From: Bacteroidota bacterium
Lineage (GTDB): Bacteria > Bacteroidota > Bacteroidia > 2-12-FULL-35-15
Assembly (NCBI GenBank): GCA_947466965.1
Contig: CANIFU010000023.1
Location: forward strand, 1-39,766
DNA: 39,766 nt
Direction: 5' to 3'
The notes beneath the pieces were generated by a model that was not told the DNA's origin, did not search any database, and saw nothing but the letters and a program-made list of their open reading frames with translations. Both the position numbers and the translations under genes were made by a program. This document shows positions 34,265-37,232 of the stretch, piece after piece. Numbering within the stretch: the first letter of the stretch is position 1; each line of letters starts with the position of its first letter.

Positions 34265-35176
34265 ATGAGCACAAAAACTACTATTCCCGATTTTAGAATT
34301 ACACCAACCGTAGACCAAGTTGGAGTTGAAGAGCGTGTAACACGATTTACAACAAGAAGTATCAAAAAAGAGTCGAAAATGCAAGGCATGAAAATGATCT
34401 TAAGCATGATTGATTTGACTACTTTGGAAGGGAAAGATACGGAAGGGAAAGTAAAACAGATGTGTTACAAAGCAGCGCATTTACACGATATTATTCCTGG
34501 TTTGCCAACCGTAGCAGCAGTTTGTGTTTATCCTTCGATGGTTAAAACGGCAAAAGATGCTTTAATAGGTACAGGCGTAAAGGTTGCTTCCGTTTCTACA
34601 GCTTTTCCAAGCGGACAATCGACTCATGAAATTAAAATTTCTGATACAAAATTTGCTATTGCCAATGGTGCCGATGAAATCGATATGGTTATATCTCGTG
34701 GCGAATTTTTAAAAGGGAATTACAATTTTGTATTTGACGAAATAGCAGCCATTAAACAAGCGTGTGGAAAAGCTAGATTGAAAGTCATTTTTGAAACAGG
34801 TGAGCTTTCTACATTGGATAATATCAGAAAAGTGAGTGATATCGCCATGTATGCTGGGGCAGATTTTATTAAAACATCCACTGGGAAAATTTCTCCGGCA
34901 GCAACGATGCCCGTAACATTGGTAATGTTGGAAGCCATTCGCGACTATTATTATGCAACTGGACGAATGGTAGGAATGAAACCTGCAGGTGGAATTTCAA
35001 CATCTAAATTAGCCTTACAATATTTAATTATGGTGAATGAAACGTTGGGTGCAGATTGGTTGAGTAACGAATGGTTTCGTTTCGGAGCGAGTAGTTTGGC
35101 GAATGATGTATTGATGCAAATCGCTAAGCAAAATACAGGCGTTTATCAGTGTTCAGATTATTTTTCAAAAGATTAA
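34265..35176 (+). CDS. deoC: Deoxyribose-phosphate aldolase
   Basis: A 303-residue class I aldolase of the longer DeoC subgroup. Catalytic residues are D140 in GADEIDMVIS, the Schiff-base lysine K203 in ADFIKTSTGK and K239 in VGMKPAGGIS. The N-terminal 40 residues before the barrel are charged and not part of the core. It splits 2-deoxyribose 5-phosphate into glyceraldehyde 3-phosphate and acetaldehyde in the cytoplasm. The aldehyde dehydrogenases downstream (35766-38127) would oxidise the acetaldehyde. An inverted-repeat cassette with a GxxExxY gene now separates deoC from them. Confidence 0.95.
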   Translation: MSTKTTIPDFRITPTVDQVGVEERVTRFTTRSIKKESKMQGMKMILSMIDLTTLEGKDTEGKVKQMCYKAAHLHDIIPGLPTVAAVCVYPSMVKTAKDALIGTGVKVASVSTAFPSGQSTHEIKISDTKFAIANGADEIDMVISRGEFLKGNYNFVFDEIAAIKQACGKARLKVIFETGELSTLDNIRKVSDIAMYAGADFIKTSTGKISPAATMPVTLVMLEAIRDYYYATGRMVGMKPAGGISTSKLALQYLIMVNETLGADWLSNEWFRFGASSLANDVLMQIAKQNTGVYQCSDYFSKD

Positions 35177-35187
35177 ACAGCGACTGG

Positions 35188-35217
35188 CTATTTTTAGCCG
35201 CAGATTCGCAGATTTTT
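35188..35217 (+). repeat. Left 30-bp inverted repeat of the GxxExxY cassette
   Basis: This 30-base copy, starting CTATTTTTAGCCGCAGATTC, is perfectly mirrored at 35717-35746. It contains the tandem octamer CGCAGATT CGCAGATT. It begins 11 bases after the deoC stop. Confidence 0.9.
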
Positions 35218-35235
35218 ATATTGTAAAAAATTATT

Positions 35236-35682
35236 ATGGCAGATTTTGAAGTAGAGGAAAAATGGATTGTGGCTGAACCCATAGCTGAATATTGGGATAA
35301 GAATGATTACAAGTTTCAAGATGAAACGCGTAAAATTATTGGTATTTGTATGGAAGTTCATAGAGAACTTGGAAGAGGATTTTCAGAAATAGTATACAAA
35401 GATGCGCTTGAGTGGGAGTTTGCTCAAAGAGGTGTTCCTTTTCAAAGAGAGAAAATTTATGAAGTTAAGTATAAACAAATTCTATTGCCACATTCATTTG
35501 TTGCAGACTTTGTAATTTTTGATAATATTATTTTAGAAGTAAAAGCAAAAAATGGAATTGTCGAAGATCATTTAGAGCAAACAATAAATTATTTGGCTGT
35601 TTCTAAGTGTCCAGTCGGACTTCTTATAAATTTCGGAGAAAGTTCTTTAACATTTAAAAGATTTGTATTAACAAAGAAATAA
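35236..35682 (+). CDS. GxxExxY protein, PD-(D/E)xK nuclease-like
   Basis: A 148-residue member of the GxxExxY family. The naming motif is G48-F-S-E51-I-V-Y54, following VHRELGRGF. The core has the acidic/lysine arrangement of PD-(D/E)xK nucleases: D91 in VADFVIF and E101/K103 in LEVKAK, followed by EQTINYLAVSKCPVGLLINFG. Members lie alone in scattered genomic sites and are widely transferred, but no biological role has been proven. Here it is the only gene between two perfect 30-bp inverted repeats (35188-35217, 35717-35746). The N-terminal 25 residues precede the usual family start and are acidic. There is no signal peptide or membrane segment. Confidence 0.85.
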   Translation: MADFEVEEKWIVAEPIAEYWDKNDYKFQDETRKIIGICMEVHRELGRGFSEIVYKDALEWEFAQRGVPFQREKIYEVKYKQILLPHSFVADFVIFDNIILEVKAKNGIVEDHLEQTINYLAVSKCPVGLLINFGESSLTFKRFVLTKK

Positions 35683-35716
35683 CAGGAATAGAATCTGCCA
35701 AAATATATAACGGATA

Positions 35717-35746
35717 AAAAATCTGCGAATCTGCGGCTAAAAATAG
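35717..35746 (-). repeat. Right 30-bp inverted repeat of the GxxExxY cassette
   Basis: Perfect inverted copy of 35188-35217, ending 19 bases before the aldehyde dehydrogenase ATG. The two copies enclose 559 bp. No clear target-site duplication was found outside them. Confidence 0.9.
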
Positions 35747-35765: not shown

Positions 35766-37232
35766 ATGAGCTCAAAAAAAGAAAAAAAATTAAAATTCAA
35801 TGCAGCTTGGGACTTAGATCCCGCTCCGGAAGATTCAAAACATGTTTCGATTAAGAAGCAGTATGATTTGTTTATTAACGGAGAGTTTGTAAAACCAAAC
35901 AGCAAAAAATATTTTGCTACTTACAATCCTGCAACAGATGAAAAAATTTCCGAAGTTGCCGATGCGGATGAAAAAGATGTAGACAAAGCAGTGAAAGCAG
36001 CGCGTGCAGCGTTTGGGAAATGGAGCAAATTGTCTGGTAAAGAAAGAGGAAAGTATATTTATCGAATAGCACGATTAATGCAAGAAAGAGCAAGAGAGTT
36101 TGCAGTAATTGAAACGATGGATGGCGGAAAACCAATTCGTGAAAGTCGCGACATTGACGTGCCTTTGGCAGCCAACCACTTTTTTTATTATGCAGGTTGG
36201 GCAGATAAGTTAGAATATGCTTTTCCAAATAGAAATCCAAAACCATTAGGGGTAGCCGGACAAATTATTCCTTGGAATTTCCCTTTGTTGATGGCAGCTT
36301 GGAAAATAGCTCCGGCATTGGCTGCAGGAAATACTGTTGTACTTAAGCCTGCCGAAACAACTCCCTTAACGGCTTTGAAACTTGCTGAATTGATTCGTGA
36401 TAGTGGTCTACCAAAAGGTGTGGTGAATATTATTACAGGTGCAGGAAAAACAGGTGCAGCAATTGTAAATCATCCGGACATCGATAAAATTGCATTCACA
36501 GGTTCCACCAATGTTGGAAAATGGATTCAAAAATCTATTGCAGGAACAGATAAAAAATGTACACTTGAGTTAGGAGGAAAAGCAGCAAATATTATTTTTG
36601 AAGATGCGCCATTAGATCAGGCAGTAGAAGGAATAATCAACGGAATATTTTTTAATCAAGGACATGTATGTTGTGCTGGTTCTCGTTTGTTTGTTCAGGA
36701 AAGTGTTGCTGATATTGTGATTCGTAAGCTGAAAGACAGAATGGAAACGTTGAGAGTTGGAGATCCAATGGATAAGAACACAGATATTGGAGCAATAAAT
36801 TCCAAGCAACAATTATTAAAAATTCAAGAGTACATTGAGATAGGAAAAAATGAAGGCGGCGAAATTTATCAACCTTCATGCAGTCTACCGAAGAAAGGAA
36901 ATTTTTGCAAACCAACTATTTTCTTAAATGTTTCTCAGTCGCATCGAATTGTGCAAGAAGAAATATTTGGACCTGTTTTGGCAATTCAAACATTCAGAAC
37001 AATTGAAGAAGTGATAGAAAAAGCAAATAATATTCCTTACGGATTATCAGCAGGAGTATGGACCGACAAAGGATCTAAGATATTTAATCTGACAAGCAAA
37101 TTAAAAGCAGGAGTTGTTTGGGCAAACACCTATAACAAATTTGATCCTACTTCTCCCTTTGGTGGATACAAGGAAAGTGGCTTTGGCAGAGAAGGTGGAT
37201 TGCATGGATTAGGAGCATATCTAACTATTTAA
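35766..37232 (+). CDS. Aldehyde dehydrogenase, full length and catalytically complete
   Basis: A 488-residue NAD(P)-dependent aldehyde dehydrogenase. PWNFP with N171 at 169-173, KPAE at 194-197, FTGSTNVG, the general base E268 in TLELGG, and the catalytic cysteine C302 in NQGHVCCAGSR are all present; EEIFGPVL and the C-terminal PFGGYKESGFGREGG complete the fold. The first 30 residues are a charged extension. Lying behind deoC it probably oxidises acetaldehyde to acetate. It is directly followed (10 bp) by a half-length aldehyde dehydrogenase lacking the active site, a pairing that mirrors the two halves of ALDH16. Confidence 0.93.
   Translation: MSSKKEKKLKFNAAWDLDPAPEDSKHVSIKKQYDLFINGEFVKPNSKKYFATYNPATDEKISEVADADEKDVDKAVKAARAAFGKWSKLSGKERGKYIYRIARLMQERAREFAVIETMDGGKPIRESRDIDVPLAANHFFYYAGWADKLEYAFPNRNPKPLGVAGQIIPWNFPLLMAAWKIAPALAAGNTVVLKPAETTPLTALKLAELIRDSGLPKGVVNIITGAGKTGAAIVNHPDIDKIAFTGSTNVGKWIQKSIAGTDKKCTLELGGKAANIIFEDAPLDQAVEGIINGIFFNQGHVCCAGSRLFVQESVADIVIRKLKDRMETLRVGDPMDKNTDIGAINSKQQLLKIQEYIEIGKNEGGEIYQPSCSLPKKGNFCKPTIFLNVSQSHRIVQEEIFGPVLAIQTFRTIEEVIEKANNIPYGLSAGVWTDKGSKIFNLTSKLKAGVVWANTYNKFDPTSPFGGYKESGFGREGGLHGLGAYLTI

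Follow-up and report, generated by a model that had tools for sequence, protein, structure and literature searches.

A GxxExxY nuclease gene bounded by inverted repeat arrays: a candidate engine of REPIN-RAYT-like mobile repeats

Why does a single small nuclease gene lie between two matching repeats in the interval between deoC and an aldehyde dehydrogenase (ALDH) gene, and could its product have a part in the spread of such repeats? The locus lies in a stretch of 39,766 nucleotides of a Bacteroidota bacterium (GCA_947466965.1, contig CANIFU010000023.1), here called the window, for which a first-pass annotation had described a GxxExxY gene within perfect 30-bp inverted repeats. This description was accurate. 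The gene (35236..35682, + strand) encodes a PF13366 protein of 148 aa, identified as a minimal PD-(D/E)xK nuclease from profile matches, conserved residues and a structural model. The left arm of 30 nt (35188..35217, + strand) consists of CTATTTTTAGC, two consecutive CGCAGATT units and TTT, with the units pointing toward the gene. The right arm of 30 nt (35717..35746, - strand) is its reverse complement, so that the arms are 100% complementary. The tandem octamer reported for each arm, CGCAGATTCGCAGATT, is exact in both (35199-35214, + strand; 35720-35735, - strand), and shuffles of the window gave an expectation of 0.31 matches at up to 3 mismatches. A second inverted repeat is located further in (35232-35245 and 35692-35705). 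The left inner stretch (35218..35255, + strand) carries an extra GGCAGATTT unit and overlaps the start codon of the gene, and the right inner stretch (35688..35716, - strand) carries an inverted GGCAGATTCT unit (AGAATCTGCC). With deoC ending at 35176 and the ALDH gene starting at 35766, removal of 35188-35746 leaves 11 + 19 = 30 bp, as had been calculated. The element has no space for a second gene.

For family assignment, the window protein was searched against Pfam and NCBIfam. Only PF13366 (PDDEXK_3; 119.7 bits, cut-off 22, profile positions 2-116) and TIGR04256 (GxxExxY; 131.2 bits, curated cut-off 35) matched, and no known transposase domain (DDE, HUH, serine or tyrosine) was detected in these two databases. 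PADLOC and PHROGs gave no match, and a sequence search of the PDB returned no relative. Six columns were invariant in 71 aligned proteins (E51, D91, E101, K103, Q115 and Y119); these include the catalytic PD-(D/E)xK residues and the E of GxxExxY. No cysteine was invariant among the same 71 proteins, including any that would correspond to the iron-sulphur cysteines of Cas4. The AlphaFold model was confident (mean pLDDT 88, pTM 0.82). Its best solved structural match was SSO0001 (Foldseek E 2.8e-4; VIA Z 9.0, 3.7 A over 99 residues), which places the fold in the PD-(D/E)xK superfamily on the RecB/Cas4-like side; weaker matches included Holliday-junction resolvases and exonucleases. The PD-(D/E)xK core proposed earlier is borne out by the invariant residues and by this fold match. 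GxxExxY genes were present in 78 of the 99 relatives searched, with up to 19 matches per genome. To our knowledge, the family is common and has no known function.

For the flank survey, 187 GxxExxY genes from 131 genomes were collected, of which 178 were usable. Since arm flavours vary between genes, a search with a fixed pattern was insufficient, and an aligned-flank score was therefore used, with mismatched pairs and neighbouring ORFs as controls. The upstream flank matched the reverse complement of the downstream flank with a median score of 34, compared with 19 for mismatched pairs. Scores of at least 35 were reached by 48% of GxxExxY genes and 2.8% of neighbouring ORFs. The suggestion that other GxxExxY genes might carry similar flanks thus holds across phyla. 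Genes without flanking repeats, which had been named as evidence against a cassette, form only a minority: 65% of the genes exceeded the 95% level of mismatched pairs and 35% fell below it.

The commonest arm begins with an outer TTTAACC-like leader, followed by 2-4 CRCNRAK units at a spacing of approximately 8-11 bp that run inward from both ends. This grammar was found in Bacteroidota, Ignavibacteria, Chloroflexi, Cyanobacteria and others; in Bacteroides finegoldii, for example, such arms flank a GxxExxY gene whose neighbours are radA and an FAD protein gene. Other lineages use other short units (e.g. ACGAAT), and TTAAAATTT-like repeats flank GxxExxY genes on contigs labelled viral. At four viral-contig loci (L289, L290, L291, L292) GxxExxY genes are flanked by long inverted repeats of very different short units (e.g. 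ACTTAAAATTT), which suggests that the arm principle reaches beyond the CRCNRAK grammar. The window's own genome (G000) contains four further GxxExxY genes. Two are intact, with arms of flavours unlike those of the window element (CACAGATT type and CACAGAG type); stops or a frameshift disrupt the other two, one of which keeps ACGAATT-type flanks. At two further places in this genome (L434, G000:C109; L436, end of G000:C8) tandem CGCAGAG-type array copies are followed by the apparent start of another GxxExxY gene, probably a copy broken by assembly at the contig ends. Other genes between such arms in the fetched loci, which are not an unbiased sample, were only spurious-looking ORFs or ORFs overlapping a GxxExxY locus.

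Arms and proteins were found to vary together. Within one genome, the two arms of the same gene scored a median of 39 and arms of different genes 18 (p=4e-29), and the gene's own partner arm was uniquely best in 50 of 58 cases, with 13 expected. Arm similarity also tracked protein identity after pairs with a common gene context had been removed (Mantel r=0.37, 0/500 permutations). Divergence of the protein in the window clade is accompanied by a joint change of flavour (CGC or CAC type) in both arms: in the window, G009 and G028 (73-75% identity) the arms are GCCGCAGATTCGCAGATT; in G012, a second G009 copy and a G015 copy that has decayed (57% identity) they are GCCACAGATTCACAGATT; and G007 (51% identity) has a version with three units. 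There is good support for the view that gene and arms evolve together as one unit and that this unit has gene-less derivatives.

Arrays number up to about 200 in a genome, and nearly all are intergenic. The pattern CAGAKN{1,3}CRCAGAK occurred 1311 times in 37 genomes, compared with 19 times for the reversed pattern. CAGATTCRCAGATT was present in 198 copies in G032 and 10-48 in nine other congeners, and its reversed pattern had 0 matches in any genome searched; G019 had 36 arrays of this type. Only 5 of 126 examined arrays lay within long ORFs, although such ORFs make up 63% of bases. Many arrays form inverted pairs at set distances, with interiors that are often unrelated or diverged; pairs were seen in the window's own genome, G012, G015 and G032. 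The distance is mostly 23-34 bp in G012 and G019, and 85-100 bp in G032, G015 and the C2 locus of the window's own genome. Genomes with a window-type gene (one-base-spacer arms) carried arrays of that flavour in greater number (p=0.002); the counts of arrays and of genes each scale with genome size. G032 and G019 are array-rich, and a GxxExxY gene of matching flavour was not found in them.

Near-identical hairpins in G015 were considered as recent transposition and rejected, because homology continues past the arms into another MITE. These CGCAGATT hairpins (L191-L198) are nested in that MITE, which has the ends AGTCTGTCCATA / TATGGACAGAC and multiplied them; this amplification was therefore not counted. 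Extra hairpins at contig ends of the window's own genome (C35/C46, C39/C85) were excluded as independent sites and may be tandem clusters split by assembly. In G009, many unpaired window-flavour arrays (L320-L339) are followed by a short apex palindrome (ATCGCTTCGCGAT), like half hairpins, and some stand in tandem clusters with a spacing of approximately 160-250 bp. Two G032 hairpins (L359, L360) contain an inserted repeat of about 200 bp bearing a CTGTCATCCCG ... CGGGATGACAG palindrome.

Copies of the repeat without the gene, for which a search had been proposed, do exist. Elsewhere in the window's own genome the exact 16-mer CGCAGATTCGCAGATT was found in one place only, an inverted pair at C2:116985-117101 that encloses no gene. 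Relatives of this C2 hairpin are scattered in G035, G016 and G010, with a common interior and homology that ends at the arms in the alignment. The right end of C2-type hairpins is that of the window element (AGAATCTGCCAAAATA...AATCTGCGAATCTGCGGCTA), the right arm being common to both up to approximately 35741. In 6/6 dispersed gene-less hairpins tested, the right inner end matched the right inner stretch of the window element above the 95% shuffle level, and in 3/6 the score was at least the largest of 500 shuffles. The left inner part of the best hairpin copies also resembles that of the window: the left inner stretch scored 30 against the interior of G010 hairpin L406 (shuffles: 95% 22, max 32), and its likeness to other copies was weaker. 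Because of these common termini, C2-type hairpins may be read as deletion derivatives of window-type elements.

The deoC-ALDH junction was compared among congeners. G009 has the same element there, and the sequence flanking the G028 copy can be read as the start of the same ALDH gene. The junction is short and without an array in G006, G011, G019 and G020, and contains an arm-like relic in G008. G010, the closest genome by ALDH protein, was rejected as a clean empty site, since a different 48 bp stretch fills its junction. In several congeners (e.g. G015, G014) the junction is occupied by a relative of the genes for REP-associated tyrosine transposases (RAYTs), with palindromes nearby, e.g. 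CCCCTGTCAGGGTTTCAAACCCTGACAGGGG or CCTCCGAATTCGG...CCGAATTTGGAGG. Such RAYT-like genes were recorded at L105, L108, L110, L111, L113, L115, L119 and L120; the two tested matched NF047646 with E 9e-17 and 2e-12, below the curated cut-off. One deoC-ALDH site is used by two unrelated repeat systems. Window-type elements also lie just downstream of the same ALDH gene at G009:C6:535362-535757 (L301) and G012:C147:6143-6544 (L299), so that in G009 this gene has elements on both sides.

The C2 hairpin site is occupied in the window's own genome and G035, measures only 21-42 bp in G010, G006, G031 and G020, and contains diverged sequence of similar length in G025. The short alleles also lack approximately 46 + 36 bp outside the arms. 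No target duplication was seen by eye around the window element or the dispersed hairpins, with no exact empty allele for comparison. The proposed comparison of the deoC-ALDH junction thus yielded short junctions in relatives, and neither exact ends nor a target duplication. Gene-less dispersed repeats at which no empty site exists had been held to speak against a cassette. Repeats without the gene are present, but so are empty sites; since the repeats are often paired and some have the gene element's own termini, they are read as derivatives and not as unrelated dispersed repeats.

GxxExxY copies within a genome are divergent (median best identity 0.52; one pair at 0.93, in G042), and for 76 of 80 genes the closest relative was in another genome. 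The window gene and its G009 copy differ with a dN of 0.18; dS was saturated, and dN/dS is therefore not given. Among 72,556 plasmid records one query matched 8, and scanning viral contigs by alignment gave 7 loci, so the family looks mainly chromosomal. In their behaviour GxxExxY genes are closer to RAYT genes, which are chromosomal and single-copy, than to a cassette that jumps freely. The first interpretation, a single-gene mobile cassette, is supported in part, by gene-owned matched ends, empty sites in relatives, similar flanks across phyla and gene-less copies with those ends; a homing or peel-and-paste-like mechanism found no support.

From these observations we propose a two-part repeat system, which would comprise a minimal PD-(D/E)xK nuclease gene and the inverted arrays that flank it. 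The ends of an element are arrays of 7-8-bp units about one helical turn apart, facing each other. The protein would bind its own array flavour, join two ends and cut or nick there, whereupon the bounded segment would be copied or moved. Hairpins consisting of ends only (approximately 45-140 bp) would be mobilised in trans and come to lie in intergenic positions. The master gene, which is mostly a distinct single copy, may decay or vanish and leave orphan hairpins. Our best inference, by analogy with REPIN-RAYT, is that the GxxExxY nuclease drives the spread. We consider it probable that GxxExxY genes and inverted arrays constitute a MITE-parent system of REPIN/RAYT-like kind, based on a PD-(D/E)xK nuclease that mobilises both. 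The wider proposition is evenly poised: that this is a new class of DNA-mobilising enzyme, in which a lone PD-(D/E)xK nuclease recognises short direct-repeat arrays in inverted pairs and spreads itself and gene-less hairpins in many bacterial phyla, with no need of DDE, HUH, tyrosine, serine or Cas1 enzymes.

Alternatively, the arms could be the ends of a non-autonomous element that is served in trans by an unrelated transposase such as a RAYT, with the nuclease gene captured or carried as cargo. The array-rich genomes G032 and G019, which lack a GxxExxY gene of the same flavour, and the RAYT-like genes at the same deoC-ALDH site would fit such a passenger. We nevertheless regard this as unlikely, as arm flavour tracks the GxxExxY protein within genomes and across families, and GxxExxY genes of several phyla are bordered by arms of the same grammar. 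Moreover, the element has no room for a second gene, the arms are direct-repeat arrays and not REP palindromes, and no other convincing gene lay between such arms in the fetched loci, which were not sampled without bias.

Somewhat less probable still is that a housekeeping or self-regulating nuclease, which might for instance cut hairpins or cruciforms at repeats, uses the arrays as operator or processing sites, and that other processes spread them. Mostly single, distinct, chromosomal genes with conserved catalytic residues would suit such a nuclease, as would the resolvases and exonucleases among the weaker fold matches. Against it, arrays border the gene on both sides, gene-less copies with the same termini lie at unrelated sites and share no homology beyond the arms, and site occupancy varies among congeners. 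PD-(D/E)xK folds are present among known homing enzymes, and the nuclease could accordingly be imagined to cut an arm-less allele at the insertion site, with repair copying the element in; occupation of the deoC-ALDH site in the window's own genome and G009, and the ALDH-like flank of the G028 copy, would agree with this. Homing is nonetheless very improbable, given that the short junctions of G006, G011, G019 and G020 hold no array and that elements and hairpins lie at many unrelated sites.

The first-pass observation is right and understates the case: the widespread GxxExxY family seems to power a previously undescribed system of small mobile repeats. In the open-access literature searched, none of six representative repeat sequences was found, and GxxExxY received a single mention apiece where named. 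The link to cognate repeats gives the family a testable role, and the same link offers an origin for a large body of repeats between genes. Should the nuclease mobilise these repeats, PD-(D/E)xK would join the short list of chemistries that drive mobile DNA alone, and the REPIN-RAYT lifestyle would have evolved on at least two occasions, with enzymes unrelated to each other.

For comparison with known systems, REPIN-RAYT, in which REP doublets are associated with REP-associated tyrosine transposases (PMC3116915), is the closest in organisation. In both, each flavour has a distinct gene beside its cognate repeats, the inverted doublets would fold into hairpins around a less conserved spacer, and the genes are mostly single-copy and chromosomal; gene-less inverted doublets of the same flavour, mostly intergenic, are found in both, as a likeness only. 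In contrast to RAYTs, which are HUH/Y1 tyrosine transposases, the GxxExxY enzyme is a PD-(D/E)xK nuclease, and its arm is a same-strand tandem array of direct 7-8-bp units (CRCNRAK) instead of a palindromic REP; neither GTAG nor CGTC is present in the window arm. As with MITEs and their parent transposons, short gene-less copies bear the terminal inverted repeats of the gene element and have sharp ends. Unlike MITE parents, the GxxExxY parent has no known transposase and no target duplication was seen, and unlike in MITEs, arm spacing is set per genome and interiors can be unrelated. The absence of a known transposase domain also separates the window element from a classical insertion sequence. 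The fold is shared with RecB/Cas4-like PD-(D/E)xK nucleases (SSO0001, lambda exonuclease), from which the GxxExxY protein differs as a minimal single domain of approximately 125 aa with no sequence relative in the PDB and no invariant cysteine. The GxxExxY system works like REPIN-RAYT and like a MITE parent, yet it is not a RAYT system, as both the enzyme and the repeat design differ.
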